In this document: piece by piece, positions 6,505-51,249 of the stretch
Position numbering within the stretch: the first letter of the stretch is position 1
Layout of the letters: each line of letters begins with the position of its first letter
Origin: Elusimicrobiota bacterium
Lineage (GTDB): Bacteria > Elusimicrobiota > Elusimicrobia > Elusimicrobiales > UBA9959
Assembly: GCA_016234365.1 (NCBI GenBank)
Contig: JACRER010000086.1
Location: forward strand, 1-64,000
Direction of reading: 5' to 3'
DNA length: 64,000 bases
Translations under genes and position numbers: made by a program
The notes under the pieces: model-generated
Seen by the model: only the letters and a program-made list of their open reading frames with translations
Told to the model about the DNA's origin: nothing
The model's database searches: none

Positions 6505-6648
6505 GGGATTATTTTATCATTTCCGCCGCGCGCGCCGTGGGTCTTTGGGCCTAGTACCGGGTGGGCCCTTAGACCCTCGGAAAAAATCAAGGAATAGTTC
6601 AGAATATATATGGCGTTCGCGCTTAAACCGTTGACTAAAGGACCCAGC

Positions 6649-7233: not shown

Positions 7234-7623
7234 ATGCCTGGCCCCGGGGAAAAGGTTTTCCTGGACTTCAGGGCCGGCAAACTTACGGCGGAGGGAATAA
7301 CTGAAATGTTCCCTCCGCCGGTCTATTTGGTGGCCTGGCTGGAAGGCACGCGGGTGCCGGACAAGGCCGCCCTTATGGACGCCGTGGCCGCCGCCCTCAA
7401 ATTTCCCTCCTATTTCGGCCGCAACTGGGACGCGCTGCTGGACTGCCTGCGCTCGCTGCCGGAGTTCAACCCGGCCGGCGGCTACGCGCTGGTCATAAAA
7501 GATTCCGCTTCCTTCCTTTCGGCTTCGAGCCGGGACAGGGAGGATTTTCTGGATGTGGCCAATACCGCCGCCGCTTTCCTGCGTGAAAAACTGAAGATAT
7601 CCTTCAAAGTCGTATTCCTTTAA
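7234..7623 (+). CDS. Barstar-family ribonuclease inhibitor
   Basis: FPSYFGRNWDALLDCLRSLPEF signature; starts 4 nt after the RNase stop. Confidence 0.85.
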   Translation: MPGPGEKVFLDFRAGKLTAEGITEMFPPPVYLVAWLEGTRVPDKAALMDAVAAALKFPSYFGRNWDALLDCLRSLPEFNPAGGYALVIKDSASFLSASSRDREDFLDVANTAAAFLREKLKISFKVVFL

Positions 7624-7747: not shown

Positions 7748-8437
7748 ATGAACGAAGAAAAGGTCATAGTCTTGAGGTTGAGGTTCACGCGTACCAGGGC
7801 GCTGCTGGCGCTGGTTTTGCTGTTCCTCTGCTGGCATCCCCGGCCGCTCGATTCCGAAACGCTGACCCTTACCACTTATTACCCTGCCCCTTACGGCGGC
7901 TACGTCAGCATTCTCACCACCGGCAACACTTACCTGGCCAGGGATACCGGCAACGTCGGTATCGGTACGGCCACGCCGGCTGTCAAACTGGATATTAACG
8001 GCAACGGTTGGGCCCGCGGCCAGTTCCAGTGGGGCGCGTCCAAGGCCTCTTTGACCAGCGACCAGGGCGGTTCCATCGAAGTGGGCGGCGCCGGCACCCC
8101 GTATATCGACTTCAGCCAAAACACCGGGCAGGACTATTCCGCACGGCTCTGGCTGCCCATTGCCGGGCAATTGCAGGCGGTGGGAGACTTCAGCGTTACC
8201 GGCAACATCGTTGGCTCCAGCACCAACCGGATAATGAATTACTGCAGCGAAGTCGGCTTCGGCGGCGGCACGTCCTGGTGCCCGCCAGGGACCCGGGTAA
8301 TGGCGCAGTACGGCACCGGGCGCTCGTACGCCGGCCTGCTGTTCCTGGGCAACAGCGCCCTTGAGTCCGGCAGCGGCTGGGTGCCGCATTACGACCAGGG
8401 AACTTCCGGCACCATGCTGTGCTGCCGGATACAATAG
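7748..8437 (+). CDS. Secreted protein with TLTTYYPAPYGGY motif
   Basis: Hydrophobic N-terminal segment TRALLALVLLFLCWHPRPLDSETLTLTTYYPAPYGGYVSILTTGNTYLARDTGNVGIGTATP. Confidence 0.7.
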   Translation: MNEEKVIVLRLRFTRTRALLALVLLFLCWHPRPLDSETLTLTTYYPAPYGGYVSILTTGNTYLARDTGNVGIGTATPAVKLDINGNGWARGQFQWGASKASLTSDQGGSIEVGGAGTPYIDFSQNTGQDYSARLWLPIAGQLQAVGDFSVTGNIVGSSTNRIMNYCSEVGFGGGTSWCPPGTRVMAQYGTGRSYAGLLFLGNSALESGSGWVPHYDQGTSGTMLCCRIQ

Positions 8438-8453
8438 TTTTACGGGAGGGATT

Positions 8454-8933
8454 TTGAAGAACCAGCCTCGCGCAAATACGGAAGTCGCCGTTAACCTTAA
8501 AAAATACAGCCTTGAAACAGTACGCTACGCCGCGCACGCCGCAAGCGCCGCGGCGCGCGTTTTTATAAAACTTAAGGGGCCCGCCACCGCCGTGGTGGAG
8601 TTCTCCCCTACGGGCAAACTCCCCGGGCCAAAAATAGCCGCCGCGTTCCGGGCCGAACTGGACGACGAGACCCTGCGCGCCAAAATTTGGGCCGCCAACA
8701 GCGAGCTCAGGGATTTTATGATCCTCAAGGCGCTTTCCACCGAGCCCGCGCGGGCGCAGCAGGACGATTCCGGACTTACCCCCGAGCAGGAGAAGGAGCT
8801 GGACGACCTGATAGCGCAGGTAGAGAGCGAGATAAAGCAGGAGGCCGCCGCCGGCGCCTCGGCCGACCCGCTGGGCATAACCAAGACCTGGGAAGATAAA
8901 TATGGCGCAAAAAAACCCCGCAAAAAGAACTAG
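8454..8933 (+). CDS. HxsD-like His-Xaa-Ser system protein (copy 1)
   Basis: KKYSLETVRYAAHAAS...FRAELDDETLRAKIWAANSELRDFMILKALS resembles the HxsD C-terminal signature (LLNDYxLRE-type); TTG start at 8454 after GGGAGGG; directly precedes an HxsB-like gene. Confidence 0.65.
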   Translation: MKNQPRANTEVAVNLKKYSLETVRYAAHAASAAARVFIKLKGPATAVVEFSPTGKLPGPKIAAAFRAELDDETLRAKIWAANSELRDFMILKALSTEPARAQQDDSGLTPEQEKELDDLIAQVESEIKQEAAAGASADPLGITKTWEDKYGAKKPRKKN

Positions 8934-10353
8934 CCCGGCGGGCCCGCCGCAGCTGCTGTGGCGGCGCGAAGGCGCCGACTGCCTGGTCACCAACGATTTT
9001 GGCCACTATGCCTGGCTGAAGTGCAAGGATTTTAACCTGCTGGCCGCGGGCTCACTGGGCGAGAAGCATCCCAAATACGCCGAGCTGGCGGACAAGGGCT
9101 TTGTGCGCGACAGGCTGGACTTCGAAGGCCTGGCGGCCAAGTGGCGTTCCAAGAACGCCTACCTGGGCACCGGGCCCGGCCTGCACATCCTGGTCCTCAC
9201 GCTGCGCTGCAACCACAAGTGCCTGTACTGCCAGTCCGCGGCCGCCGGGGTGGGCGCGCGCAACGCCGACATGTCCGTGGAGACCGCGCGCAAGAGCGTG
9301 GATTTTGCGCTGCAGTCCTCCAACCCGGCCATAACCATAGAGTTCCAGGGCGGCGAACCGTTGCTCAACTGGGAAGCGCTCAAGGCGGCGGTGCTGCGCG
9401 CGCGCGCCGGGGCGAAAAAAGCCGGCAAACAGGTGAGCCTGGCGCTGGTCTCCAATTTCAGCCTGATGACGGAAGAAAAGGCCAGCTTCCTGGTGGAGAA
9501 CGAGGTTTCCGTCTGCACCTCGCTCGACGGCCCCGCCGACCTGCACAACCGCAACCGGCTGTTCTCCGGCGGCAACTCGCACGCGGCCACCATAAAGTGG
9601 CTGAAGTATTTTCAGGAGCGCTATAAGCACCAGGTGCCGGGCTACCGTACCTTCAAGCCCAGCGCCCTGCTCACCGTCTCGCGCTATTCGCTGGGCCGCC
9701 ACAAGGAGATCATCGACGAGTACGTGAAACACGGCCTCGAAGATATTTTCATCCGGCCGCTGGCGCCCATAGGCTACGCCAAGAAGTGCTGGGGGCAGAT
9801 AGGCTACGGCGCGGCCGAGTTCACCAAGTTCTACCTGGCCTCGCTGGATTACATCCACAAGCTCAACCGCAACGGCACGGTGATCCGCGAGAAGATGGCC
9901 GCGATGATGCTTGAGAAGATAGTGAACTCGCGCGACCCCGGCTACGTGGACGCCCGCTGCCCCTGCGGCGCCGCCATCGGCCAGATCGCTTACAACTACA
10001 ACGGCGACCTCTACACCTGCGACGAAGGGCGCATGGTGGGCTGGGAAGGCGACGACACCTTCCGCATCGGCAACGTGCGCGCTGATTCCTACCGCAAGGT
10101 GATGGCCAGCGCCGCCACCCGCGCCTGCGTGCTCTCCTCCAACCTGGAGTCGCAGCCGGACTGCGCGCGCTGCGTGTATAAGCCCTACTGCGGCGTCTGC
10201 CCCGTCTACAACTACGAGGTGCAGGGCTCGCTGTGGGGCGACATGGCCGCCAACGACCGCTGCGGCCTTTTTAAGGGTATTTTTGGCGCGCTGTTCGCGC
10301 TGCTGAAAAAGCCCGGCGGCGAAGCCATCCTGAAGAAATGGGCGGGAAAATGA
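8902..10353 (+). CDS. hxsB: His-Xaa-Ser system radical SAM maturase HxsB-like (copy 1)
   Basis: GPGLHILVLTLRCNHKCLYCQ, EFQGGEPLLNW, VCTSLDGPADLHNRNR, RPLAPIGYAKK, SPASM-like CPCGAAIGQIAYNYNGDLYTCDEGRM...CARCVYKPYCGVCPVYNY. Confidence 0.8.
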   Translation: MAQKNPAKRTSPAGPPQLLWRREGADCLVTNDFGHYAWLKCKDFNLLAAGSLGEKHPKYAELADKGFVRDRLDFEGLAAKWRSKNAYLGTGPGLHILVLTLRCNHKCLYCQSAAAGVGARNADMSVETARKSVDFALQSSNPAITIEFQGGEPLLNWEALKAAVLRARAGAKKAGKQVSLALVSNFSLMTEEKASFLVENEVSVCTSLDGPADLHNRNRLFSGGNSHAATIKWLKYFQERYKHQVPGYRTFKPSALLTVSRYSLGRHKEIIDEYVKHGLEDIFIRPLAPIGYAKKCWGQIGYGAAEFTKFYLASLDYIHKLNRNGTVIREKMAAMMLEKIVNSRDPGYVDARCPCGAAIGQIAYNYNGDLYTCDEGRMVGWEGDDTFRIGNVRADSYRKVMASAATRACVLSSNLESQPDCARCVYKPYCGVCPVYNYEVQGSLWGDMAANDRCGLFKGIFGALFALLKKPGGEAILKKWAGK

Positions 10354-10649
10354 AAGAAGAGAAAAAAGAATTTTCACTGACGGCGGACCCCCGGGTTTAT
10401 TCGGCCGAGGCTTTGCGCCTGGCCGCCTTCGTCTTCTCCGACAGGGCGGAGGTCTGCGTAAAACCCGGCAAAGGCGGGCTTGCCGTTTCCTTCGCGTCCG
10501 CCGCGCCCGGTTTCCACCCCGGCGACTTCATGAACGAAGCGCTCAACCAGCAGTGCCGCCTGGACCTGGCGAAAAAGAATTCCAAGGCCGCCGGCATGAT
10601 AGCCACCAAGGCCCTGCTGTCCGCCGCCGGAGAAAAGAAGAAAGCCTGA
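10350..10649 (+). CDS. HxsD-like protein (copy 2)
   Basis: YSAEALRLAAFVFSDRAEVCV...GDFMNEALNQQCRLDLAKKNSKAAGMIATKALLSA; ATGA overlap with upstream hxsB. Confidence 0.68.
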   Translation: MKEEKKEFSLTADPRVYSAEALRLAAFVFSDRAEVCVKPGKGGLAVSFASAAPGFHPGDFMNEALNQQCRLDLAKKNSKAAGMIATKALLSAAGEKKKA

Positions 10650-10692: not shown

Positions 10693-11574
10693 ATGCCCGA
10701 CATCGCGTTCTGGAATAAATGCAATAACAAGTGCGTCATGTGCACCAACGAGGGCGGCTTCGCGCGCAACGGCTCGCAGCATTACGGCCTGCGCCCGCAG
10801 GTGGAGAAACTTGAACGCTGGCTGGGCGGGCGCGGCCAGGTTTACCTTAAGAACGACGACACGCGCGGCGCCGTAAGCCTTACCGGCGGCGAACCCACCA
10901 TCCATCCCGACTTCTTCCGCCTGCTGGCCTATTTCCGCCGCCGCCTGCCTGGGCACGGCATTACCCTGCTTTCCAACGGCCGCCGCTTTGCGGACGCGGA
11001 GTTCGCGCGGCGCTTTCTTAAGATAGCCGTGCCGCCTTTTTTCGTGGCCGTGCCGGTGCACTCGGCGTCGCCCGCGCTGCACGACAAAATAGCCGGCGTG
11101 AAAGGCGCCTTCGCGCAGACCCTGGCCGGACTGCGCAACCTGTTCCCCGGCGGCACCGGGCTGGAGATCCGCCTGGTCCTGCACAAGCTCAATATAAAAA
11201 AACTGAAGCCCCTGCTCGCTTTCCTGCTGGATAATTTCCCGGATACCCGGCGTTACCGCGTCTGCGCCATACATTACGAGATAGAGGGCATGTCGCTGAC
11301 CAACCACCGCCGCCTGGCCATAGCCCTTAAAGAGTCCGCCGCGGCGTTGGGCGCGGCCCTGCCGCTGGTGAAACGCTTCAACGATTTCAGGCTGTATCAC
11401 TTCCCGCGCTGCCTGGTGCGCCCGGAACTGCGCCCCCTCTGCCGCGTGACGCTGCCGCCGGAAGACCGCGTTTATACCGCGAAATGCCGCGGCTGCCGCG
11501 CGCGGCGCGGCTGCCTGGGCCTGATGGCGGAATACTACAAGGCCTTCGGCGACGGGGAACTGCGCCGGCTATGA
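10693..11574 (+). CDS. HxsC-like radical SAM maturase; also carries the compact-family C-terminal motif
   Basis: WNKCNNKCVMCTNEGG, SLTGGEPTIHPDFFRLL, LLSNGRRFADAEFARRF, C-term CRGCRARRGCLGLMAEYYKAFGDGEL; follows hxsD-hxsB-hxsD. Confidence 0.68.
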   Translation: MPDIAFWNKCNNKCVMCTNEGGFARNGSQHYGLRPQVEKLERWLGGRGQVYLKNDDTRGAVSLTGGEPTIHPDFFRLLAYFRRRLPGHGITLLSNGRRFADAEFARRFLKIAVPPFFVAVPVHSASPALHDKIAGVKGAFAQTLAGLRNLFPGGTGLEIRLVLHKLNIKKLKPLLAFLLDNFPDTRRYRVCAIHYEIEGMSLTNHRRLAIALKESAAALGAALPLVKRFNDFRLYHFPRCLVRPELRPLCRVTLPPEDRVYTAKCRGCRARRGCLGLMAEYYKAFGDGELRRL

Positions 11575-23611: not shown

Positions 23612-25024
23612 ATGATATCTCCACGGATGAAAGAACAGAACGCCCCGTCGCATTTTACCTGGCGCCGCCTTAAGAAGGGCGTGCTGGTTACCGGCTATAT
23701 GGGCGGCTGGGCCGTGCTGAAGCCGGAGGAGTTCCGGCTTTTCTCCGCCGGGAAACTTAAAGAGGGCCCGGCCCTGGCCAGGCTGGAGAAGGCCGGCCTG
23801 CTGCGCTCCCGCCTGGATTTCGATTCCATTTTCACGGATTGGCGGGATTCCAACGAGTATATTTCCAAAGGCCCCGGCCTGCATATCATGGTGCTGACGC
23901 AGGTCTGCAACCATAACTGCGTCTACTGCCAGGCGGGCGAGGTTACCGGGCGCTCCATGTCCCTGGCCACGGCGAAGAAGGCCGTGGACCTGGCTTTCAG
24001 TGCGCCGGTGCCGGGGCTTACCATAGAGTTCCAGGGCGGAGAGCCGCTGGCCAACTGGCCGGCGCTTAAGGAAGCCGCTCTTTACGCCCGCGCCAAGGCC
24101 GCCAAGACCGGCAAGGAACTGGCGCTGGCGCTGGTCTCCAATTTCAGCCTGATGGACGAGGCCAAGGCCAAGTTCATAATAGACCAGGACATTTCCGTCT
24201 GCACCTCGCTCGACGGCCCGGCGGACCTGCACAACGCCAACCGGCCGTTCTCCGGCGGCGACTCCCATGCCGCGGCGGCGAAGTGGATAAAATATTTCCA
24301 GGCCCGGCGCGGCACCGAACCGCCCGGAGGGCCCAGCGCGCTACTAACGGTCACCCGGGCGTCGCTGCCGCGCGCGCGGGAGATAGTGGACGAATATGCG
24401 CGCCTCAAACTCCCCTATGTTTTCCTGCGCCCGCTTTCCCCGATGGGGCTGGCGGCGGAGCGCTGGGGCGCCATAGGTTACGAGCCGGAAGAATTCGTGA
24501 AGTTCTACCGCGAAGCCCTGGACCGCGTGCTGGAACTTAACCGCAAGGGCGTCCCGATAAGGGAGAAGACCGCCTTCCTGGTGGCTAAAAAAATAGGCGC
24601 TTCCCAGGACAACCGCTACGTAGACCTGCGCTGTCCCTGCGGCGCGGGCCTGGGGCAGCTCGCTTACGACTGGGACGGCGGCGTTTATACCTGCGACGAG
24701 GGCCGGATGCTGGCCCGCGGCGGGGACCTCTCTTTCCGGCTGGGCAGCGTCAGAGACGATTACCGGGACATCATAGGGGCCGACGCGGTGAAGGCCTGCG
24801 CCATCTCCTCCAGCCTGGACCTGCAGCCGGTCTGCGCCCGCTGCGCCTACCGGCCTTTCTGCGGCGTCTGCCCGGCCTACAACCAGGCGGCTCAGGGCGG
24901 CTTCTGGGGGTCCATGCCCGCCAACGCCCGCTGCCGCGCGCTGCTGGGGATCTTTGACGCGGTCTTCGAGCGCCTGCTGGACGGTAAAACCGGGCCGGTC
25001 CTTAAAAAGTGGCTTGAATACTGA
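23612..25024 (+). CDS. hxsB: His-Xaa-Ser system radical SAM maturase HxsB-like (copy 2)
   Basis: GPGLHIMVLTQVCNHNCVYCQ, EFQGGEPLANW, VCTSLDGPADLHNANRPFSGG, RPLSPMGLAAE, CARCAYRPFCGVCPAYNQ; closely parallels 8902-10353. Confidence 0.83.
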   Translation: MISPRMKEQNAPSHFTWRRLKKGVLVTGYMGGWAVLKPEEFRLFSAGKLKEGPALARLEKAGLLRSRLDFDSIFTDWRDSNEYISKGPGLHIMVLTQVCNHNCVYCQAGEVTGRSMSLATAKKAVDLAFSAPVPGLTIEFQGGEPLANWPALKEAALYARAKAAKTGKELALALVSNFSLMDEAKAKFIIDQDISVCTSLDGPADLHNANRPFSGGDSHAAAAKWIKYFQARRGTEPPGGPSALLTVTRASLPRAREIVDEYARLKLPYVFLRPLSPMGLAAERWGAIGYEPEEFVKFYREALDRVLELNRKGVPIREKTAFLVAKKIGASQDNRYVDLRCPCGAGLGQLAYDWDGGVYTCDEGRMLARGGDLSFRLGSVRDDYRDIIGADAVKACAISSSLDLQPVCARCAYRPFCGVCPAYNQAAQGGFWGSMPANARCRALLGIFDAVFERLLDGKTGPVLKKWLEY

Positions 25025-26218: not shown

Positions 26219-26539
26219 ATGAAAAAGAAACAATCCAAAATAAAAAAGAACGTTAAACTCTTCTTCTCCAGCGAAGAGGGGAAGATGCTGGACTCCGACA
26301 TCGTTAAGACGGGGTTGGCGCTCGGCATCCTGGGCCTGACGATGGCCGACCAGGCCAGCGCCCAGAACGTGCACACCAATTACTTCAGCGCGTCTTACCA
26401 CGTGAGCCACACCAGCCACGGCTCGCACGGCTCCCACGGTTCTCACGGGTCCCACGCGTCGCACGGCTCGCACGGGTCGCATGGCTCGCATGGTTCGCAT
26501 GGCTCCCACGGCTCGCACGGGTCCCACGGCTCGTACTGA
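26219..26539 (+). CDS. hxsA: His-Xaa-Ser repeat protein HxsA-like (putative precursor)
   Basis: C-terminal 15 consecutive HxS units (HVS HTS HGSx4 HAS HGSx8) then Tyr-stop; N-terminal basic region and hydrophobic segment IVKTGLALGILGLTMADQASAQ. Confidence 0.85.
   Translation: MKKKQSKIKKNVKLFFSSEEGKMLDSDIVKTGLALGILGLTMADQASAQNVHTNYFSASYHVSHTSHGSHGSHGSHGSHASHGSHGSHGSHGSHGSHGSHGSHGSY
26399..26533 (+). repeat. 15 x 9-bp tandem repeat encoding His-Xaa-Ser
   Basis: Units such as CACGGCTCG, CACGGGTCC, CATGGTTCG; His, Gly and Ser codons vary synonymously. Confidence 0.95.
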
Positions 26540-26548
26540 CGGGGCCTC

Positions 26549-27724
26549 ATGCCCGGGGCTGCCTCTATGAGAGGCTTGTTCTACCATTTCAGCCCCGCTA
26601 AAGATATAGGTCACGGCGTTCATCTTTTCCGTCTTGCTTCGGCCCTGGCGGCCGGCGGCAGGACGGAATTGACGCTTCTACGCGACGCTTCCGCAGATTA
26701 TCCTCCCGCCTCGGCCTGGAAATATGGGCCGGTGATCTCGCTTAAGCCCGGCACCCCGGCGGCCCGGGCCGCCCGCATCCTGCGCGAGCTGCGCGCCGCC
26801 TCTCCCGACTTCCTGGCCACCGCGTTCTTCCCCCTGGGGCGCACCGGCTGCGCCGCCGAGATAGAGCCCGCGCTTAAGGCCGCCCGCGCCGCAGGAGTGG
26901 CTCTCTACTCCACCGTGCCCATGCCGTATTTTTCCCACAACGAGCGCGCGCTGCCGGAGTTGTTCCGGTTCGCGCAGTACTACGACAGGATCTTCATAAA
27001 TTCCCCGCTGGGTTACGACCTGCGCTACATGGCCGCGGCGGCGCCGGCGGAGCGGCGCGTTTCGGCGCTTTCTTTCGCCCGGGTATTCGACCGGCTCAAG
27101 GATAAACTGTGCTTCACCGGGTACGTGCTCCCGGAAAAAAAGCCGGCGCGGCCGCGCGGCCGCGGCGGTAAATTCATCCTGGTGCACCGCTTCTGCGGTC
27201 CCACGTCGCCGGGGATAGTCACCTGCGCCATCCTCGCCAAGAAACTTTTGAAAAGCCGGCTGCCCATGGTCATAGTTTCAGGCCCGGCCAGCACGCCTGG
27301 CGAAATGCGCGGCTGGCGCGCGCTCCTGGCCAAGGAAGGCGCCGGCATAAAATTACTGAAGGAAACGCCGAACTTCTTCGGGCTCCTGGCCGGGTGCGCC
27401 GTCTCCGTGGGCACGGCCGGCGGGACCGTCTATGAGGCGCTGTATCTGAACCGGCGCAGCGTCCTGATCCCTTATAAAGGCCGGCCCGGCGCCGAGCGCT
27501 CCGACCAGCTGGCCCGCGCGGCCATGCTGCGCGACCTCGCCGGCGCCGCCGTGCTGGATTACGATTCGCTTACCCCGGCCTCGCTGGCCGCCGCCATAGA
27601 CGCGGCGCTCCTGGACCGCTCGCCGGGCTGCGCGGCCCCGGCCGGGATATTTTCCGGCGCCGAGGTGTTCGCGCGGACGGTGCGCCATGACCTGGGAGGA
27701 GGCAAACGTGCCCAGGCTGTTTAA
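26549..27724 (+). CDS. Glycosyltransferase-like protein (MurG/GT28-like C-terminal fold)
   Basis: SPAKDIGHGVHLFRLASALAAGG, MVIVSGPAS, SVGTAGGTVYEALYLNRRSVLIPYKGRPGAERSDQLARAAML. Confidence 0.6.
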   Translation: MPGAASMRGLFYHFSPAKDIGHGVHLFRLASALAAGGRTELTLLRDASADYPPASAWKYGPVISLKPGTPAARAARILRELRAASPDFLATAFFPLGRTGCAAEIEPALKAARAAGVALYSTVPMPYFSHNERALPELFRFAQYYDRIFINSPLGYDLRYMAAAAPAERRVSALSFARVFDRLKDKLCFTGYVLPEKKPARPRGRGGKFILVHRFCGPTSPGIVTCAILAKKLLKSRLPMVIVSGPASTPGEMRGWRALLAKEGAGIKLLKETPNFFGLLAGCAVSVGTAGGTVYEALYLNRRSVLIPYKGRPGAERSDQLARAAMLRDLAGAAVLDYDSLTPASLAAAIDAALLDRSPGCAAPAGIFSGAEVFARTVRHDLGGGKRAQAV

Positions 27725-28685
27725 TTCCGTGATGCTGGAGCTTACCTACAGGTGCAACCTGGCCTGCCGGTTCTGCTACCTGCGCGCCGGCGGCAGGCTC
27801 AACTCCGGCGGCGCGGAGCTGTCCGCGCGGCAGGTGAAGAAGATCGTGGCGCGTTTCCCGCGGGGGACGGATTTTTATCTTTCCGGCGGAGAGCCGCTGC
27901 TAAGGGACGACCTGCCGGAGATAGCGGCCTTTATCCGCCGGCGCGGGTCGCGGTTCGGGGTGAACACCAACGGCACGCTGCTTACCGGGGCCATGGCGCG
28001 CCGCCTCGCGGCCCTTTCCCCGGAGTACGTTATCTTCTCGCTGCACGGGCCGGAAAAACTGCACGACGCCCTCTGCGGGGCCAAGGGCGCCTGGCGCGCG
28101 CTGGTAGCCAATATGGCCGCTTTCGCCCGGCTGGCCGGGCCGCGCACCGAAATTATCGTAAATTGCGTGGTGACCGGGGAGAACGCCGGCAGCCTGGCCG
28201 CGGTTTACCGCATAGCGGCCAAAGCCGGCGCGCACCGGGTGATCTTCAGCCATCTGCAGTTCCTGCGGCCGGCGGAGGGCGAGGGCCTGGCCCCGGCGCT
28301 TAAGGCCGGAGGGGTGCTTACCCCCGCGCGGGCCCCGGAGCCGGTGAACGTCCAGCTGGTACGCGCGCAATTGGAGAAGTTAAGGGCCGGCAGGAAGGCG
28401 GGGCCCCACCTGGAAGTGCGGCCGCTGCTGGACGGGGACGGGCTGAAAAAATACTATAACGGCAGGCTGCGCCCTTTGGGCCGCTGCCTTAAGGCGCTCG
28501 ATACCCTTAACGTGGAGCCCGACGGCAGCGTGCGGCTCTGCGTGTCTTACGGGCTAAAGATCGGCGACGCGCTGAAAACCGGCCTTGGCCGCCTGGCTGC
28601 GGCTAAAAAGCGCAAGCTGAGCGGCGCGCTCCCGCCCGGGTGCGCGCGCTGCTGCCACAGATTTTCTATTTTCCGTCACTTCTGA
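27708..28685 (+). CDS. Radical SAM protein with partial SPASM-like C-terminus
   Basis: LELTYRCNLACRFCYLRAGG, FYLSGGEPLLRDDLP, LNVEPDGSVRLCVSYGLKIGDAL. GTG 27708 preceded by GGGAGGAGG; ORF extends to 27687. Confidence 0.87.
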   Translation: MPRLFNSVMLELTYRCNLACRFCYLRAGGRLNSGGAELSARQVKKIVARFPRGTDFYLSGGEPLLRDDLPEIAAFIRRRGSRFGVNTNGTLLTGAMARRLAALSPEYVIFSLHGPEKLHDALCGAKGAWRALVANMAAFARLAGPRTEIIVNCVVTGENAGSLAAVYRIAAKAGAHRVIFSHLQFLRPAEGEGLAPALKAGGVLTPARAPEPVNVQLVRAQLEKLRAGRKAGPHLEVRPLLDGDGLKKYYNGRLRPLGRCLKALDTLNVEPDGSVRLCVSYGLKIGDALKTGLGRLAAAKKRKLSGALPPGCARCCHRFSIFRHF

Positions 28686-31160: not shown

Positions 31161-31847
31161 TTAATCCTGGTACAGTTCCACCAGGCGTTTTATGGACCTG
31201 TGCCGCGAGGGCCGGTTGGGAACGAAATACGCGTTGCCGCGCATGTACAGGGGTTCCGGCAGGGCTTTGGGGTTGGTGAGCTTTATGGTGTCGCCTTTAC
31301 AGGCGCGCGCGCAGGGCGCGGAATTGAACGCCTTGGTGAAGGAGCAGAAGCGCGTTACCGAGACGAAGCGCAGGGGGTAGTGGAAATGCACGGCCCCGCG
31401 GAAACCTTTCAGCCTGGCGAGCGTTTCTTCGGAGTCAGCCTCCACCGCCGGTACGCCGTATTCCTTGCAGAAGGCGTTGAGGAACTTCTTGTCCATCTCC
31501 GCTATCTCCCAGGTGAGCAGCCGCCCTATCAGCGGCACGGCGAGGGGGAAATCTTTTTTGATCAGGCGCAGCAGGCCCCAGTCGTTCACTACCACCTCGA
31601 ACTTGCGCTTCCGGGCCGAAAGCCCGCGGAGCAGCGCCCTGGCCGCTTCGAGGCCGCGGTTGCTGAGCAGGGGCGTGGCCAGCACCACCTTCCCGGAGTA
31701 CAGGGAGCGGAGTTTGCGCAGGTCCGCCGCGGAGGGAAGTTTGTTCTCGCAGAATTCGCTGCCGAGGTAGACGCAGTCGCGGCCGGAGAGGCGCTCCGGC
31801 GTGGCGCGGCTAAGTTCCCAGGGGCTTAAAGATATACTTTTTTCCAT
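31161..31847 (-). CDS. UbiV-like U32-family partner protein (pair 2)
   Basis: DCVYLGSEFCENKLPSAADLRKL, FEVVVNDWGLLRLI, RFCSFTKAFNSAPCARACKG; Cys layout resembles UbiV. Confidence 0.72.
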   Translation of the reverse strand: MEKSISLSPWELSRATPERLSGRDCVYLGSEFCENKLPSAADLRKLRSLYSGKVVLATPLLSNRGLEAARALLRGLSARKRKFEVVVNDWGLLRLIKKDFPLAVPLIGRLLTWEIAEMDKKFLNAFCKEYGVPAVEADSEETLARLKGFRGAVHFHYPLRFVSVTRFCSFTKAFNSAPCARACKGDTIKLTNPKALPEPLYMRGNAYFVPNRPSRHRSIKRLVELYQD

Positions 31848-32736
31848 AGTTCTGGGCCTCGCGGACGGAGCGGAATCCCTCGTGGACGAACAGTTCGCGG
31901 GAGATCCCTTTTTCCAGCAGCTTCATCAGGTACACGGTCTTGTGGAATACTTCTATGACCTCGGCCACGTTGGGGCCGCGCGCCACCTTCATGCAGTCGG
32001 CGCCCATGTGGTAAAGGTCGTAAAGGGTGGAAAGCAGCGTGCGGGTGTCGGGCATGGGCATGGCGAATTCCCCGCCCGGCGAGCGCAGTTTGGACTGGCA
32101 GGTGTAGGGCACCTGCTTTTTCCCCGGGATTATTTCCTGCGAGCAGGGGCAGCTCATGGTGCAGAGCGGGTTGAGGTTGATCTCGTAGAACATCGGCAGG
32201 CAGAAGATCTCTATCTCCACGCCCTTGCGGTCGCGGAAGAAGGGGGCGGATTCCTGCGACGTGAGCTGCTGCGGCAGCACTATCCTGGATACGCCGCGCT
32301 CACGGAAGAAATCCATGGCGCCGCGGTTAAAACAGATGGCAAGCGTGCTCAGGGTGAAGAACGGGCGGATGTCGGCCGCGCGGAAATGGTCCAGCAGCGC
32401 TATGTCGCGGATGATCACGCCGTATACGCCTTTCTTGACCAGGTCTTTAACCATGGCGGTCGTGCGGCGGAAGTCGGCGGAGGGGAAAATATCGTTGGCT
32501 ACCAGGAAGACCTTCCTGTTCATACGCCGGGCCAGTTCCACCGTGTCGTGGATGCCCTCCACGGAGGAGTAGTTCTCCTGCGGTTTGCCGTGGTTGGGGA
32601 TGGCGGGGATGCCGCAGTATACCTCGTCGGCGCCGTGGCGGAAGAAGTATTCCGCCTCCGCGGCGGTGCGCACCCCCACGGTGGTCAGCATGCGGGAGGA
32701 GCGCGGTTTTGCGTCGGTTCCGGTCTTAGCCTTCAT
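31810..32736 (-). CDS. U32 family UbiU-like protein (pair 2)
   Basis: GADEVYCGIPAIPNHGKPQENYSS, VFLVANDIF, GVSRIVLPQQL, CLPMFYEINLNPLCTMSCPCSQ. Confidence 0.8.
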   Translation of the reverse strand: MKAKTGTDAKPRSSRMLTTVGVRTAAEAEYFFRHGADEVYCGIPAIPNHGKPQENYSSVEGIHDTVELARRMNRKVFLVANDIFPSADFRRTTAMVKDLVKKGVYGVIIRDIALLDHFRAADIRPFFTLSTLAICFNRGAMDFFRERGVSRIVLPQQLTSQESAPFFRDRKGVEIEIFCLPMFYEINLNPLCTMSCPCSQEIIPGKKQVPYTCQSKLRSPGGEFAMPMPDTRTLLSTLYDLYHMGADCMKVARGPNVAEVIEVFHKTVYLMKLLEKGISRELFVHEGFRSVREAQNYGKKYIFKPLGT

Positions 32737-32744
32737 ACGGAATA

Positions 32745-33443
32745 TTATATATAAGAAACCCGGCCCCGGCCCGGCAGGAGGGTGAGCGCGCGGCGCCAGA
32801 TCCCCGCCGGCGCGGGCGCGCGGCCGGCCCCGGAGAAATAGGCCTTCTCGCTCAGCAGCAGGCCGAAGCCGAGTTCCTTGTTGGAGAGCTTCAGCGCCCC
32901 GGAGCCGCAGGCGTGGCCGCAGGGAAAACGGTAATGGCGCTCGAACGGGCAGTAGGAAGTTACCGCCTTGAAGACCGAGCGCTGGTGGAGCGAGACTTTA
33001 AGCCCCAGGCGCCGCGAGGCCCTGCCGGCGAGTTCCGCCGTGTCCGCTTCCGCCGAGACTATGCCGTGTTCGCGCAGGAAAGCCGCGGCCCAGCCGCGCT
33101 CCAGCTTTACCAGTTCCCTCGTCAAAAGCCTGCCGGCCGATACCGGCACGCCGGCTTTGGCGGCCGCCGGCAAAAAGCCCCAGTCGTTGACTATCACCTC
33201 GGAGACCAGCGTGCGGGCCCCGGCCAGGAGTTTGCGCCAGGCGGCCAGGCCGGCGTCGGTCATGATGGAAGTGGCCAGGCCCGCGCCGCCGGGGCAGAGG
33301 GCGCGCAGGCGGCGGAGGGTTTTGGGCGAAGGCAGCTGGCTCTGGCAGAATTCGCTGCCTACCAGCAGCCTGTCCCAGCCGCGGGCTCCCGCCGCCGTAA
33401 GGCGGTCAGCCTGCGAAGGGCTTAAGAGTAAAACTTTTTCCAT
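32745..33443 (-). CDS. UbiV-like U32-family partner protein (pair 3)
   Basis: RLLVGSEFCQSQLPSPKTLRRL, SEVIVNDWGFLP, SYCPFERHYRFPCGHACGSGALKL. Confidence 0.72.
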   Translation of the reverse strand: MEKVLLLSPSQADRLTAAGARGWDRLLVGSEFCQSQLPSPKTLRRLRALCPGGAGLATSIMTDAGLAAWRKLLAGARTLVSEVIVNDWGFLPAAAKAGVPVSAGRLLTRELVKLERGWAAAFLREHGIVSAEADTAELAGRASRRLGLKVSLHQRSVFKAVTSYCPFERHYRFPCGHACGSGALKLSNKELGFGLLLSEKAYFSGAGRAPAPAGIWRRALTLLPGRGRVSYI

Positions 33444-34284
33444 ATTCGAGCGGTTTGCTGTCTATCTTCCTGCCTTCGTGCAGGAAAAGCTTTCTTGAGA
33501 TCCCCTTTTCCAGGAGCTTCAGCATGTAGCGGGCCTTGTGGAACAGGTCCGCCTGGCGCAGGGTGTTGGGCCAGCGCGCCACTTTAAGGTAGCCCACGCC
33601 CGCCCGGTGGAAGTCGTAGACGGCGTTGAGCATATAATCGGGGCCCGGCATCGGCATATGGAAGGTGCCGGCTTTGCTGCGGAACGGCAGCAGGCAGGTG
33701 AAGTCGCGGAAACTGCCGCTGGCGGCTTCGCTGGTCTGCGGGCAGGGCAGGTAGCACTGGGAATCCAGGTTGACGCCGTAGTAGAGGGCGGGGCAGAAAA
33801 CCTCGGTTTCCACGCCGAGCCGGTTCTTTATGAGGCCGGCCGCGTTCTCCGGCATCATCTGCATGGGCAGGACCAGCCGGGAGATGCCCAGGTCCGCAAA
33901 GAACCGCAGCGTCCCGGCGTTAAAGCAGTTGGCCAGCGTGCTGAGGGTGAAATAGAAACGGAACTTTTTCTTTTTAAAATAGGCCAGCAGCGCCGGGTCG
34001 CGCAGGATGGCGCCGGCAAGGCCGGCTTCCTTTAGCCCGGCCAGCAGCCGCAGCGTGGAGGTGTAGTCCTCTTCCTTTACGAATTCGTTCACGGCCAGGA
34101 ACACTTTTTTCCCGGCCGGGGCCGCCAGGGCTATCACCCGGCGGATCTCGGCGGGGGAGCTGAAATTTTCCCGCGCCAGGCGGTTGTTGCTTACCCGGGC
34201 GATGCCGCAGTAAACTTCGTCGGCCCCGGCTGAGAGGAAGTACATTGCTTCCCGCAGCGATTTTACCCCGACGGTCATTTTCAT
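33406..34284 (-). CDS. U32 family UbiU-like protein (pair 3)
   Basis: GADEVYCGIARVSNNRLARENFSS, VFLAVNEFV, GISRLVLPMQM, CPALYYGVNLDSQCYLPCPQT. Confidence 0.8.
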   Translation of the reverse strand: MKMTVGVKSLREAMYFLSAGADEVYCGIARVSNNRLARENFSSPAEIRRVIALAAPAGKKVFLAVNEFVKEEDYTSTLRLLAGLKEAGLAGAILRDPALLAYFKKKKFRFYFTLSTLANCFNAGTLRFFADLGISRLVLPMQMMPENAAGLIKNRLGVETEVFCPALYYGVNLDSQCYLPCPQTSEAASGSFRDFTCLLPFRSKAGTFHMPMPGPDYMLNAVYDFHRAGVGYLKVARWPNTLRQADLFHKARYMLKLLEKGISRKLFLHEGRKIDSKPLEYGKSFTLKPFAG

Positions 34285-35354: not shown

Positions 35355-36364
35355 GATCTGAAAAATCCTTTTACCAGCCCGGCCACGAAAGCGGCCTCGC
35401 TTTCAGCCATCATCGGGTAGGACGGCAGGTGCAGGGCGCCGGCGGCGTAAGCGGTGCTGGCCGGGAAAGAGCCGGCGGCGCCGGCGAGGAGGTGCAGGGG
35501 TTCGTACGTGCGGCCAAGCGGCACTTTGCGGGCCAGCAGGAATTTTTCCAGTTCGCGCTTGCGTTCGGTAAGCACCGGGAAATCCTGGGACTGCCGGCCC
35601 ACAGCGGGTATGAGCAGGCCTTTGACGCCGGAGAGGGCGCGCCGGTAGGCGTCGTTGTTCTTCTTGAGCCCGGCCAGCGTTCGTTCGAGCAGGGAAAGTT
35701 TCAGCTCCATCAGCGGGGCCGCCTTCGGGGAGGGGGCGGGGGAGGCCGCCGCGGCCCGGGCGGCCTTTTTGAAAAGCACGGGGTCGTCGCACAGCAGGGC
35801 GCCGGCCTTGGCGCCGGGGAATGAGACCGGCTTATAAGAGGACAGGGAAAAAACGCTGATATCCCCGAAAGAGCCGTACGGGCGGCCGCCGGAGGAAACC
35901 CCGATTATCTGCGAAGCGTCCTCCAGGACGGGAAAACCCTTGGCCAGCGCCAGCGCGCGGACCAGGTTTACGGGGGCGGAGGCGGAGAACATGGGCGTAA
36001 AAATAAGCGCGTCCAGCGGGCCTGCGGCCTGCAGCGCTTTGGCGCTGACGTTCAGGTTGGAGGCGTTAATGTCCAGGAATTCCGGCCGGGCGCCAAGCGC
36101 GTTGGCGCAATCCAGCGCCGAGGGGTGGGTAAGGTCGGTCATGCCCACGCGGCGGCCTTTGGTAGCGCCGAGGGCCGCGAGGCCGGCCCGGATGGCGTCC
36201 CGGCCGCTGCCGGTGATAAGACAGTAGCGGCGCCCGGTAAAGGCGGCGAGTTTTTTTGCGAACCGGTCCATGGCGTCGGGCCCGGCGGCTTTGGCCAGCC
36301 AGTCGGCGCGCCGCGCCAGCAGCGTGTCGTCCAGGCGGCAGGGGTCGAACAGTTCTGGCTTCAC
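35351..36364 (-). CDS. DegT/DnrJ/EryC1/StrS-type PLP-dependent aminotransferase
   Basis: YCLITGSGRDAIRAGLAAL, VLEDASQIIGVSSGGRPYGSFGDISVFSLSSYKP (PLP Lys); GTG start overlapping the upstream stop (GTGA). Confidence 0.82.
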   Translation of the reverse strand: MKPELFDPCRLDDTLLARRADWLAKAAGPDAMDRFAKKLAAFTGRRYCLITGSGRDAIRAGLAALGATKGRRVGMTDLTHPSALDCANALGARPEFLDINASNLNVSAKALQAAGPLDALIFTPMFSASAPVNLVRALALAKGFPVLEDASQIIGVSSGGRPYGSFGDISVFSLSSYKPVSFPGAKAGALLCDDPVLFKKAARAAAASPAPSPKAAPLMELKLSLLERTLAGLKKNNDAYRRALSGVKGLLIPAVGRQSQDFPVLTERKRELEKFLLARKVPLGRTYEPLHLLAGAAGSFPASTAYAAGALHLPSYPMMAESEAAFVAGLVKGFFRS

Positions 36365-37287
36365 CGCTTTCTCCCGCGGCCGGCCGCCGGTTTTTTTACC
36401 GGCTTGAATTCGTCCCAGCCGTAGAGCGCCGGGTATTCGCGCCAGGGGCCCTCGCAGCGGCTGAAATGGAGGCATTCCGGGCAGCGGGGCCCGCGGGCCT
36501 TGCCCTCGTCGCGGCGGTAGGCCGCGTAATCTTTTATAAAGCGGTCCGCGTCGGCCACCGGGCCCGGGGGGATCATGCTCTCGGCGACGTTGGCCTCGTA
36601 ACCTTTCATCAGGCAGAACGGGATGGCCTCGGTGTAACAGGCGATGCCGCGGCGCAGGCCCAGGTCGAGGGCTTTTTTAACGTAGGGCATCACTTCGGTC
36701 TTGCGCGGCACGATGTTCTTTTTGTTCTCTGCGGCCGTGCCCACTATGTGCACGAAGGCGAACTGGTACTGGGTGACGCCCAGCTTAATAAGGAGCGCGG
36801 CTATGGCGGGCAGTTCCTTGTAATTGTCGGAGGTGATGACGGTATTGGTGATGACCGGCAGGCCGGTGCGCGCCGCGTTGGCGATGCCGGCCACGCTCTG
36901 GGTAAAACTGCCGGGCGCGCCGGTAAGCGAGTCGTGCGTGGCGGCGCAGGCGCCGTGCAGGCTGGGGCCGAATTCCGTGAGACCGGCTTTGACCAGTTCC
37001 GCGCAGAAGCCGGGGTAGGCGAGCGTGCGGCCGTTGCTCTGCAGCTGTATGGCGGTAAAGCCGGTCTTTTTGGCCGCGCGCACCAGGTCCAGTATTTTGG
37101 GGTGCATGCTGGGCTCGCCGCCGGTGAACACCACGCCGCGCACGCCGTCCTTCCACGCCTTCTTCAGCTCGGCGGCCACCTTGGCCCCGGTGCGGTCCGG
37201 GTACATGTCGCGCTTATGCCCCTGCGCGCAGAAGCGGCAGAGGTTATTGCAGTGGAAAGTTATCTTTATGTCTATGCGCTTGTGCAT
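36361..37287 (-). CDS. Radical SAM protein, compact family
   Basis: ITFHCNNLCRFCAQGHK, VFTGGEPSMHPKIL, CPECLHFSRCEGPWREYPALYGWDEF. Confidence 0.88.
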   Translation of the reverse strand: MHKRIDIKITFHCNNLCRFCAQGHKRDMYPDRTGAKVAAELKKAWKDGVRGVVFTGGEPSMHPKILDLVRAAKKTGFTAIQLQSNGRTLAYPGFCAELVKAGLTEFGPSLHGACAATHDSLTGAPGSFTQSVAGIANAARTGLPVITNTVITSDNYKELPAIAALLIKLGVTQYQFAFVHIVGTAAENKKNIVPRKTEVMPYVKKALDLGLRRGIACYTEAIPFCLMKGYEANVAESMIPPGPVADADRFIKDYAAYRRDEGKARGPRCPECLHFSRCEGPWREYPALYGWDEFKPVKKPAAGRGRKR

Positions 37288-40805: not shown

Positions 40806-41798
40806 ATGTATTTCGAGAGCACGCTGGCGGAGAAAGCCCGGAAGTTCTTCAGACTGGTCCTGGGGAGCTACGCTTTTCCGCCGCGCGATATAACGGTGGA
40901 AGTCACTACGCGCTGCTCCCGCGGGTGCGCCGTCTGTTTCCGCGGCCCGCTGGGCGTGCGGCCGGAGGACATGCCGCGGGAACTTTTCACTAAAACGCTC
41001 TCCGAGATCCGCGCCGCTTACGCCGGCCGCGGGCCGCGCTACCTCAACTTCGTGGGGCTGGGCGAACCGTTCTGCCGGCCCGACCTGCCAAAGCTGTTGC
41101 GGGAGGCCGCGGCCGCGCTGCCGGGCACGGAGCTCAATCTTTCCACCGGGCTTGTTCCTTTCGACGCGGCCGCTTTCGAGGGCCTGGTGCGCGATAAGAC
41201 CATCAACCGGCTCAGCGTTTCCCTGGACGGCGTGGAAAAAGGCGGGGCTTTCCACGGCTTCACGCCTGAAGTCTCGGCGGCTTTTCTGGAATTGAAGGGG
41301 ATAAAGGAAAGGAACCCCGGCTTTAAGATAAGGATCCAGACACTGCTGACCTCCTGGCCGGCGGTAGAGGCCGCGGTGCGCTACGCCGCCGAACTCGGAG
41401 CGGAAGAGATACAGCTGATGCGCGTGGACCTGCACGCGTTCGGGGACGCGCCTCCCGCGGCCCGGCCGGCTTTCGCCGAGGAACGGGCCATGGTGGCCGC
41501 CGCTAAAAAACTGGCGGCAAAACTCGGCCTGGCCTGCCGCAACAACAACGTTTACGACCTGTTCATGGATATCGCCGGCCGCGGCGGCCGCCGCTGCCTT
41601 ATTTCCGACGATCATGTTTTCATAACCGCCGCCGGGGACCTGATCCCCTGTTTTTACCTGCGCGAGGTTAAATTCGGCAACCTTTCGCGGCAGACGCTCG
41701 CGCAAGCCTGCGCCGGCAGGAAAGAAAAAGACCTTTACGGCCGCCAGACAACGCTCTGCCGCGGCTGCGATATCTACCGCAAGGAGCACGCCGCGTGA
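40806..41798 (+). CDS. Radical SAM/SPASM protein
   Basis: VEVTTRCSRGCAVCFRGPLG, SVSLDGVEKGG, FITAAGDLIPCFYLREVKFGNL...CRGCDIYRK. Confidence 0.87.
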   Translation: MYFESTLAEKARKFFRLVLGSYAFPPRDITVEVTTRCSRGCAVCFRGPLGVRPEDMPRELFTKTLSEIRAAYAGRGPRYLNFVGLGEPFCRPDLPKLLREAAAALPGTELNLSTGLVPFDAAAFEGLVRDKTINRLSVSLDGVEKGGAFHGFTPEVSAAFLELKGIKERNPGFKIRIQTLLTSWPAVEAAVRYAAELGAEEIQLMRVDLHAFGDAPPAARPAFAEERAMVAAAKKLAAKLGLACRNNNVYDLFMDIAGRGGRRCLISDDHVFITAAGDLIPCFYLREVKFGNLSRQTLAQACAGRKEKDLYGRQTTLCRGCDIYRKEHAA

Positions 41799-43210
41799 GG
41801 GTCCTGCTCGTCCATCCGCCGCAGCCTCAGGCCAGGGCGCAGAGGGAGCTGGAGAACCTTATGCCTCCGCTGAACCTGCTGTACCTGGCGGCCTATCTCA
41901 GGCGCGAAGGGCATGAGGTCAAGGTGCTGGATCTTTACGCGGAACCGCGCGGCCCGGCGGAAGAACTTTCGGCGATGGCCGGTTTTTCTCCCGAAATGGC
42001 CGGTTTCGCCACCTACCCCGGAAGCATCGACGAGGTCTACCGCCTGAGCGCCGCGCTGAAAACGGCTTCGCCCAAAACTTTTGTGGTACTGGGGGGCTTG
42101 TACGCGAGTTATCTTCCCGAGATAGCCCTGTCGCAGTGTCCGGCCGACGCCGTGGTGATGGGAGAGGGGGAGGCGACGCTTGCGGAGCTGGCCGGCCGGC
42201 TGGCCGGGGGGGTGTCTCCCGCGGGGCTGACCGGGCTCTGCCTGCGCGTCCCCGGCGGTTTCTCGCGCGGCGCGCCGCGGCCGCCGCTGCCCGGCCTGGA
42301 CGCGCTGCCCTGGCCGGCTTATGACCTGATAAATTTCGACGCTTACCGCCTGCCGCCCACGCGGGCCGTTACCGGCGGGCGCGTGTCTTCCGTGCTTTCC
42401 GCGCGCGGCTGCAATTTCAACTGCAGTTTCTGCGCGCACCATTACGGCTACGCCTGCCATGTGCGGGTCAGGCGGCCGGAGGACGTGGTGGAGGAGATGG
42501 CGCACGTGGCGCAAACCTACGGCGTGAAGGAATTCCGCTTCGAGGACTGCGCTTTCACCGCCGACCCCTCCCGCGCCGAAAAGATCTGCGGCCTGCTGAA
42601 AGAGCGCCTGCCGGGGCTGGCCTGGAACTGCGACGTGCGCGCCGATACCGCCTCCGACAGGCTGTTCGCGGCGATGCGCGCGGCCGGCTGCTCCAGGGTT
42701 TTTCTCGGCGTAGAGACCGGTTCCCCGAAACTGCTCGGCGCGCCGGGCGCCAACAAGGCCATACGCCTGGACCAGGTCCGCGCCGCGGTGCGGCTCGCTA
42801 AAAAGCACGGGATGCGCATCAATTGTTCCTTCGTCCTTGGCTTGCCGGGTGAAACGCGCCAAACGGCGCGGGAAAGCCTGGACTTCGCGCTGGAACTGGA
42901 CCCTGATTACGCCATGTTCTCGGTATTGATGCCCGTAGTGGGGTCCTCCATCTTCGACCAGGCCGTAAAAGAAGGGAAGATAGACCCGGCCGCTTACCGG
43001 GGCGGGCATTACCTTGCCGCCTATTCCGGGGCGGGGCGGGTGGTCCCCATGTGCGACCTGCCCGCGGAGGAGCTGGTGGCGCTGATGCTGGCGTTCAATA
43101 AAAAATTCTGCTCCCGCCCGGCTTACGTGCTGAGGCGCCTGCTGGCGGTGCGCTCGGCGGCGGAACTGCGCAGCCTGGCCTGGGGAGCCGCCCACATTTT
43201 CGCAAGATGA
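41795..43210 (+). CDS. B12-binding-domain radical SAM protein (type A)
   Basis: VLLVHPPQ...LMPPLNLLYLAAYLRREGHEV; VVMGEGEATL; ARGCNFNCSFCAHHYGY; GTG start 41795. Confidence 0.9.
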   Translation: MRVLLVHPPQPQARAQRELENLMPPLNLLYLAAYLRREGHEVKVLDLYAEPRGPAEELSAMAGFSPEMAGFATYPGSIDEVYRLSAALKTASPKTFVVLGGLYASYLPEIALSQCPADAVVMGEGEATLAELAGRLAGGVSPAGLTGLCLRVPGGFSRGAPRPPLPGLDALPWPAYDLINFDAYRLPPTRAVTGGRVSSVLSARGCNFNCSFCAHHYGYACHVRVRRPEDVVEEMAHVAQTYGVKEFRFEDCAFTADPSRAEKICGLLKERLPGLAWNCDVRADTASDRLFAAMRAAGCSRVFLGVETGSPKLLGAPGANKAIRLDQVRAAVRLAKKHGMRINCSFVLGLPGETRQTARESLDFALELDPDYAMFSVLMPVVGSSIFDQAVKEGKIDPAAYRGGHYLAAYSGAGRVVPMCDLPAEELVALMLAFNKKFCSRPAYVLRRLLAVRSAAELRSLAWGAAHIFAR

Positions 43211-44592
43211 AAGTCCTGCTCGTTAATCCGCCCCACGTTTTTTCAAGCGGGAACCCCATGGGCCGCGCCGGGTTGTCCATGCCGCCGCTCGGCCTGCTGG
43301 CCATAGCCGCTTACCTCAGGCGCGAGATCCCCGGCGTGGAAGTAAAAGTGGCGGACTGCCCCGGCTCCCGCCTGACTCCGGAGGCCTTCGCGCGCGAGGT
43401 CTTGGCCTTTGCCCCTGACGTCGCCGGGGTAAGCGTCTATACCGGGACGTTCAGCGCTTCGGCCGCCGCGGCCGCCGCCGTAAGGAAGGCGGCGCCCAAG
43501 TGTTTCATCGCCGCGGGCGGGCACCACGCTACGGCCCGCCCCGAACAGTGCCTCGCCGGTGGTTTCGACGCCGCGGTGATAGGCGAGGGGGAAAGAACTT
43601 TCTGCGAACTGGTGCGCCGCCTGGCAGCCGGCGTTCCTCCGGCCGGGCTGGCCGGGCTGCTGCTGGAGGCTGGCGGGGCCGTGACGCGGCCGGATCTGCT
43701 GGAGATGGACTCCCTGCCGCTGCCCGCCAGGGACCTGCTGGATATGACGGCTTACCGCCCGGCGCTGTTCGGCTACAGGCGCCTGCCCGTGATGAGCATG
43801 GTAACTTCGCGCGGTTGCCCGTTCTCCTGTTCCTTCTGTTCCAAAGAGGTCTTCGGTTCGGCTTACCGGGCGCAGAGCCCGCGCAGGGTGCTGGAAGAAA
43901 TGCGGGTCCTGGCGCAAACCTGCGGCGCGCGCGAGATAAGTTTTCAGGACGATACTTTTACCGCCGACCGCGGGCGGGTAATGGAACTTTGCCGGCTGCT
44001 GGGCGAGAGCGGCCTGGACCTTACCTGGTCCTGTATGACGCGGGTGGACCTGGTGGACGCGGAGCTGCTGGGCGCCATGGCGCGTTCCGGCTGCGTTTCC
44101 GTGGCTTTCGGAGTGGACGGCGCCGGGGACGCGGCCTGCGGGGCGATGAATAAGGGTTTTACCGTCGCCCGGGCAAGGGCCGCGGTGGCAGCGGCGCGCG
44201 CGGCCGGCATAGCCACGCGCGGCTATTATATTTTCGGTTATCCCGGGGAGACGCGCGCCTCGCTGGAGGCCGCGCTGCGCGGCATAACGGCGATAGATAC
44301 GGATCACGTCTTCTTCGCCTTCGCCCACCCGTTCTTCGGCACGCCGCTTTACCGTGAGGCCCGGGAGAAGGGGCTGCTGGCGGTTTCCGACGAGGAACTG
44401 CTGGACGCGCACGACAACACGGTGCCGCTGGTGAAGGTGCCTGGGATGACGGAACGGGAACTGGCGGGGTTCTGCAGGCGGGCCTATCTGGAGTATTACC
44501 TGCGGCCAGGGCCTTTACTGCGCCTGCTGGCCTCTCCCGGGGGGCTGAGCGGCGCCTTCAGGGCGGCGAGGTCCTTGCTGCGCTGGTATTGA
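43207..44592 (+). CDS. B12-binding-domain radical SAM protein
   Basis: VLLVNPPHVFSSG...MPPLGLLAIAAYLRREIP; VIGEGERTF; SRGCPFSCSFCSKEVFG. Confidence 0.9.
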   Translation: MKVLLVNPPHVFSSGNPMGRAGLSMPPLGLLAIAAYLRREIPGVEVKVADCPGSRLTPEAFAREVLAFAPDVAGVSVYTGTFSASAAAAAAVRKAAPKCFIAAGGHHATARPEQCLAGGFDAAVIGEGERTFCELVRRLAAGVPPAGLAGLLLEAGGAVTRPDLLEMDSLPLPARDLLDMTAYRPALFGYRRLPVMSMVTSRGCPFSCSFCSKEVFGSAYRAQSPRRVLEEMRVLAQTCGAREISFQDDTFTADRGRVMELCRLLGESGLDLTWSCMTRVDLVDAELLGAMARSGCVSVAFGVDGAGDAACGAMNKGFTVARARAAVAAARAAGIATRGYYIFGYPGETRASLEAALRGITAIDTDHVFFAFAHPFFGTPLYREAREKGLLAVSDEELLDAHDNTVPLVKVPGMTERELAGFCRRAYLEYYLRPGPLLRLLASPGGLSGAFRAARSLLRWY

Positions 44593-44593
44593 A

Positions 44594-46060: not shown

Positions 46061-46196
46061 TCCCTGCGGCCGCTCGGCGGCTGTTCCCAGTATATAACAT
46101 AAGGGTATTTTCCGGCTACCGGCCGTACGACGGCGCACGGCTTATTGTGATATAATTGAAAATCGGTTTTTCATAGGGGAAAGCCGGTCCCGGACG

Positions 46197-47609: not shown

Positions 47610-47639
47610 CCCGGGGAATATTTCGTAAGATGATATAGC

Positions 47640-50067: not shown

Positions 50068-50150
50068 GAGCCTGTCCGACATAAGCAATTTCGCCTGCAA
50101 TTCTCGCTTTTGGCCTGCGCCTTTGCGGCGCTCAACTTACAGGCTCCTAG
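50064..50150. repeat. Small element with 12-bp terminal inverted repeats (MITE-like)
   Basis: CTAGGAGCCTGT (50064-50075) and its reverse complement ACAGGCTCCTAG (50139-50150), 87 bp overall. Confidence 0.65.
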
Positions 50151-51205: not shown

Positions 51206-51249
51206 ATTCTAGCAAACCTTTACCCTTTCCTTTTGGTAGACTATGGCGT

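Follow-up and report, generated by a model that had tools for sequence, protein, structure and literature searches.

The window, i.e. the whole stretch of 64,000 nucleotides that was analysed, belongs to an uncultured bacterium of the Elusimicrobia group and harbors at positions 26219..26539 of the forward strand the gene hxsA4, which encodes a precursor of 106 amino acids with an uninterrupted core of 15 tandem His-X-Ser units (26399..26533). Unless stated otherwise, the hxs genes, P377 and the two genes that follow hxsA4 lie on this strand. The tract reads HVS-HTS-(HGS)4-HAS-(HGS)8-Y-stop, with V, T, four G, A and eight G in the X positions, and is closed by a C-terminal Tyr cap (26534..26536). 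The protein sequence preceding the repeats is MKKKQSKIKKNVKLFFSSEEGKMLDSDIVKTGLALGILGLTMADQASAQNVHTNYFSASY. The coordinates, the frame and the 15-unit tract given for this gene in an earlier note proved to be exact on re-reading of the interval, and the start codon is backed by comparable N-termini in 40 homologs. In 50 first-order Markov shuffles of the window the longest His-X-Ser run arising by chance comprised 2 units, and besides hxsA4 no run of more than one unit is present anywhere in the window. At the DNA level, TRF reports the array with a period of 9/18 bp and 80-83% matches.

Upstream of the core, the homolog alignment together with a hydropathy and motif scan delineates a leader of amino acids 1-48 (26219..26362), comprising a basic N-terminus, a conserved F(L/F)xSEEGKMLD(S/A)DIVK block and the hydrophobic stretch IVKTGLALGILGL. 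The residues A-S-A, a signal-peptidase-I-like motif, precede Q49, with which a linker of amino acids 49-60 begins (QNVHTNYFSASY; 26363..26398); in the alignment it displays a conserved H-[ST]-N-Y-F-like motif. Among the HxsA4 homologs the EE-type block of the leader is invariant, and an AxA-like motif follows the hydrophobic stretch in most of them. In hxsA4 this stretch starts only at residue ~28, which is late for a classical signal peptide. Judging from these features, export of the HxsA4 product appears fairly probable.

The HxsA4 protein scores 72 bits against the NCBIfam model NF038313 (HxsA4; cut-off 55), and the gene located two positions upstream encodes an HxsB protein that likewise exceeds its cut-off (429.8 vs 370 bits). 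Because of these two matches the previous call of an HxsA-type precursor holds, and we are nearly certain that 26219..26539 encodes an HxsA4-type precursor of a His-Xaa-Ser (Hxs) RiPP. According to family profile searches, hxsA4 is the genome's only member of the HxsA4 family. His-Xaa-Ser systems have carried a name for years, and the locus is a further member of the known, named HxsA4 family. What goes beyond the existing annotation is the selection at the level of the peptide, the fixed register and caps, and a dedicated, unnamed membrane partner, P377.

The codons of the core vary from unit to unit. His is encoded by CAC (12) and CAT (3), Gly by GGC (7), GGG (3) and GGT (2), and Ser by TCG (8), TCC (4) and TCT (1). 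The variation at these codons had been recognised before, but the first two Ser codons, which are AGC and belong to the other serine codon family, had been overlooked. Altogether, 11 distinct 9-base units are found among the 15 that encode the tract. Compared with the consensus unit they carry 25 nucleotide changes but no more than 3 amino-acid changes, each of which affects X. Placing the changes at random would be expected to alter 14.8 amino acids on average, and a value as low as 3 was reached in none of 20,000 simulations. Moreover, alignment of the tract with those of two genomes from the same genus (L032 and L048) showed that all 45 residues are identical; each pair differs by 15 synonymous changes and by no nonsynonymous one. 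Since the 15-unit peptide is identical in these two close relatives despite the silent differences, we conclude that selection acts on the peptide, as had been suggested. An excess of synonymous changes per site was also observed in most other pairs of tracts aligned in register; here switches between TCN and AGY serine codons were scored as nonsynonymous steps, which inflates the nonsynonymous counts in several pairs.

An unselected slippage array within a hypothetical open reading frame would account for the number of units, which differs among species and ranges from 5 to 27 across the 40 HxsA4 homologs. We regard the chance of this as practically negligible: it is at odds with the lack of nonsynonymous differences from either relative, with the 7-11 distinct DNA units that close relatives use for nearly one peptide unit, with the fixed non-Gly unit 7 and end caps, and with the curated family that covers hxsA4. 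Because the peptide is under purifying selection, pure slippage was rejected as an explanation. Slippage may add units to the array, but it is the peptide that is maintained.

The homolog set comprises hxsA4 of the window and 39 sequences from genomes of the same family. The His-X-Ser frame, on whose conservation the earlier note had made its reading depend, is kept in all 40, the sole exception being one unit in one homolog (HGS to LGS in L044). In 22 of the 40, units 1-7 follow the order xx-GGGG-[A/S] with a non-Gly unit 7, and the length differences among these 22 lie mainly in the later HGS run. Three C-terminal caps occur in the set, namely Tyr, [A/S]RGGWC and GQW, all of which bear an aromatic residue, and W- or Y-bearing caps are found again in other phyla.

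The genome comparison covered 61 genomes, 37 from the own family and 24 from a sister family. HxsA4 was detected in 34 of the 61 (own genome included), every one in the own family, to which HxsB over the cut-off is likewise confined in this comparison; HxsC-like proteins at E<=1e-30 occur in 33 genomes of the own family and in 0 of the 24 of the sister family. Across the phylum, 67 of 296 sampled genomes encode HxsA4 over the cut-off; named relatives are Elusimicrobia MAGs, e.g. GWA2_61_42 and GWD2_63_28. The combination of leader, tail and adjacent HxsB is also found in MAGs labelled Omnitrophota, Azambacteria, Moranbacteria, Deltaproteobacteria and Diapherotrites. Look-alikes consisting of the tail only, with neither leader nor HxsB, are present in Paenibacillus, Bacillus, Peribacillus and Brevibacillus and serve as a negative control. 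In addition, we observed about 59 His-Gly-Ser units with a Trp end in a Myxococcales MAG (L093, contig JAJYLH010000024.1), where HxsC-like and HxsD-like matches lie in the same locus.

The genes around hxsA4 are arranged on the same strand in the order hxsB-P377-hxsA4, after which come the genes for a GT28-like and a radical SAM protein. The product of hxsB (23612..25024) is a radical SAM/SPASM maturase of 470 amino acids, as indicated by its TIGR03978 score, its Cys positions, including CNHNCVYC at amino acids 99-106, and its placement in the HxsB tree. In 35 of the 39 relative loci HxsB is encoded on the same strand at most 4.5 kb upstream of HxsA4. The GT28-like glycosyltransferase gene (26549..27724; PF04101, 25.1 bits vs 22) starts 9 bases after hxsA4. 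It adjoins hxsA4 in only part of the relatives, and also does so in a different genus (L057). The enzyme is a possible accessory factor that could glycosylate Ser residues of the product. The radical SAM protein encoded behind it (27687..28685; PF04055) shows the same partial distribution.

A second set of hxs genes is located at 8.4-11.6 kb. It consists of a gene for an HxsD-like protein (8361..8933; TIGR03976, 22.9 bits, below the cut-off of 50), a second hxsB (8902..10353; TIGR03978, 484.9 bits vs 370), a gene for another HxsD-like protein (10338..10649; TIGR03976, 32 bits, again below 50) and a gene for an HxsC-like radical SAM protein (10693..11574; TIGR03977, 161.7 bits, below the cut-off of 267.9). 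This divergent HxsC-like type is the one encoded in the 33 genomes of the own family and in none of the sister family. An HxsC4-like radical SAM gene on the reverse strand (36361..37287) scores 144.9 bits against NF038332, far below the cut-off of 500. Many relatives show the arrangement HxsD-HxsB-HxsD-P377-HxsA4, in which the HxsD-like proteins flank hxsB. In the HxsB tree, the copy adjacent to hxsA4 and the HxsD-flanked copy are sister duplicates, and a third clade is formed by those HxsB proteins that are paired with HxsC in the relatives; a swap of P377-hxsA4 and hxsC between the two hxsB copies was rejected on the basis of this tree. In two inspected relatives (L133 and L134) the HxsD-flanked operon includes P377 but lacks hxsA4, and an HxsC4-like radical SAM gene and HxsC come next; the likeness of that radical SAM gene to the one at 36361..37287 was judged by reading the sequences. 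The structural model built for HxsD (pLDDT 82) gave no PDB match at E<=0.001 and thus lends no support to a PqqD-like RiPP recognition element.

The surroundings form an unusually dense radical-SAM island, with 25 proteins over the Pfam Radical_SAM cut-off between 5584 and 63956, several of which are B12-binding (41795-55316 and 62607-63956). A Barnase-type ribonuclease gene (6610-7230) is directly followed by a gene for a barstar-type inhibitor (7234-7623), and about ten of the relative loci have such a pair upstream of HxsA4. Just upstream of the HxsD-HxsB set, positions 7748-8437 encode a secreted-looking protein with a TLTTYYPAPYG stretch; its position is conserved in many relatives, and profile searches returned no family match for it. 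Further downstream (31161-34284), each U32-peptidase-like gene is paired with a short partner gene, and these tandem pairs are repeated twice, PF01136 being confirmed for one of them.

P377 (25081..26214) ends 4 bases before hxsA4; its conserved start is MKKW at 25099. The N-terminus is predicted to span the membrane and thereby to anchor the protein, a GVxLP motif is present, and eight Cys residues are invariant in the 16 aligned members. No Pfam or NCBIfam family covers the protein in profile searches, and its model (pLDDT 84) gave no PDB fold match at E<=0.001, so that no known periplasmic fold is supported. P377 occurs in 33 of the 37 genomes of the own family and in 0 of the 24 of the sister family, and in 29 of 39 loci it lies at most 1.5 kb upstream of hxsA4. 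In loci with divergent EAAC-type leaders and GQW caps it is absent or gives no more than a weak N-terminal match. What is new here is that this unnamed protein, encoded directly upstream of hxsA4, usually accompanies it. We infer from the sequences a role of P377 together with the HxsA4 product.

Linkage and gene context make HxsA4 a strongly supported candidate for radical-SAM modification by HxsB, and a radical-SAM modification of the peptide as such can be predicted with high probability; by analogy, the chances that it consists of a His-Ser linkage are about even. The best reading, to which we attach somewhat more than even weight, is that of a RiPP that is modified at its i/i+2 His-Ser pairs and exported. 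In the cytoplasm, HxsB, possibly together with HxsD, would recognise the leader, in which the SEEGKMLD block is conserved, and each His-X-Ser unit would be oxidised by this HxsB, the second HxsB and the HxsC-like enzyme. Most likely, the oxidation would link the imidazole of His to the beta-carbon of the Ser at i+2, yielding an i/i+2 cyclophane with a change of -2.016 Da per unit, or up to -30.24 Da over the core; the 15 small rings would turn the tract into a stiff chain. The precursor would be exported via the hydrophobic stretch and cut after Ala48, between ASA and Q, and the remaining peptide of 58 residues (49-106), with a calculated monoisotopic mass of 5909.46 when unmodified, may stay with, or be handled by, the membrane-anchored, Cys-rich P377 outside the membrane.

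This ring is proposed because the HxS spacing suits the rings made by HaaB, YhhB and ScaB, three enzymes that connect C2 of His with the C-beta of residue i+2; MscB joins Phe to the C-beta of Ser (PMC11002830). Every HxS unit presents an aromatic residue at i together with residue i+2, the core motif of the triceptides. What counts against the ring is that HxsB is outside every known cyclophane-forming family tested, as it reached 42.9 bits with the GrrM/OscB model (cut-off 310) and 31.4 bits with the YhhB model (cut-off 445). A further point against the preferred reading is that the HxsC-like and HxsD-like genes, whose scores stay under their family cut-offs, are located about 15-18 kb upstream. 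The literature searched for Hxs chemistry yielded a single find, in which HxsB and HxsC are named as putative maturases (PMC9062424); neither the chemistry of the HxsB product nor a paper on the product or function of His-Xaa-Ser systems was found in it.

Among the solved structures, the nearest relatives of HxsB include anSME (4k37, 3.3e-10) beside the radical SAM protein 5wgg. HxsB might therefore act like anSME and turn Ser into formylglycine in every unit, or oxidise the side chain in another way at the cost of 2 Da, with no ring being formed, and the constancy of Ser in the repeat, which equals that of His, would agree with this. Ser oxidation alone gives no account of the equally constant His at its fixed spacing, however, and HxsB belongs to a family distinct from anSME (TIGR03942, 59.1 bits vs a cut-off of 349.45), and we consider such an activity unlikely. 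Because Ser-to-formylglycine conversion likewise removes 2 Da and anSME is near HxsB, a loss of 2 Da per unit would by itself be no proof of a crosslink.

The 16 His residues of the predicted 58-residue mature peptide suggest a different emphasis, in which the tail mainly chelates Zn, Ni or Cu for buffering or delivery, and the radical-SAM modification only tunes the ligands. Other His-crosslinked RiPPs bind copper (PMC10206099), but a general reading of the neighbours of hxsA4 disclosed no metal transporter or regulator beside it. Metal binding by the HxsA4 product is possible; as its main function we rate it somewhat unlikely. A collagen-like triple helix, in which Gly at every third residue (G-S-H) would be decisive and the HxS reading incidental, is highly improbable. 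The match to Pfam Collagen that might suggest it is weak and stays under the cut-off (PF01391, 26.5 vs 27.2 bits), the Gly position varies, with roughly one unit in four across the 40 homologs being non-Gly, while His and Ser are fixed, Pro is lacking, and the gene is linked to HxsB. The collagen reading was rejected on the basis of this score and of the missing strict Gly periodicity.

Taken together, the exported RiPP with i/i+2 His-Ser modification remains the reading that we prefer, and the locus offers a clean substrate, with 15 near-identical units in a fixed register and a sharp border between leader and core. It also supplies a named enzyme set and a conserved membrane partner that is unnamed in Pfam and NCBIfam. 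If every unit were cross-linked, this would make the product a radical-SAM peptide with a very high density of modifications, one that could readily serve as a repeat scaffold. More speculatively, and with a rather low probability in our view, HxsA4 and P377 may form an exported, membrane-tethered rod with up to 27 tandem His-Ser rings, a structure that would represent a novel kind of surface polymer or metal-binding ladder; P377 would then be a dedicated partner, so far undescribed, of a subgroup of Hxs systems.

With the HxsA4 systems described by NF038313 the locus shares the leader, the C-terminal tandem HxS units, the hxsB gene two genes upstream and the presence of HxsC-like and HxsD-like genes, here within the same window. 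It differs in that the latter score under the curated cut-offs and lie about 15-18 kb away, in that a second HxsB is present, and in that the unnamed eight-Cys protein P377 is inserted between HxsB and HxsA4. The HxS repeat model of HxsA3 (NF038309) matches partly (37 bits vs a cut-off of 65), and the protein is not a member of that family. The triceptides made by HaaB, YhhB, ScaB and MscB (PMC11002830) likewise combine an aromatic residue at i, a modified C-beta at i+2 and a radical SAM/SPASM maturase; the aromatic residue at i and the maturase are encoded here as well, and the modification at i+2 is predicted. In contrast, HxsB constitutes a family of its own and acts, as we propose, on 15 tandem units. 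The poly-cyclopropylglycine TVG peptide (PMC9062424) is comparable as a tandem-repeat RiPP precursor that is repeatedly modified by one radical SAM enzyme, whereas it differs in its Val chemistry, its repeat and its enzyme family.
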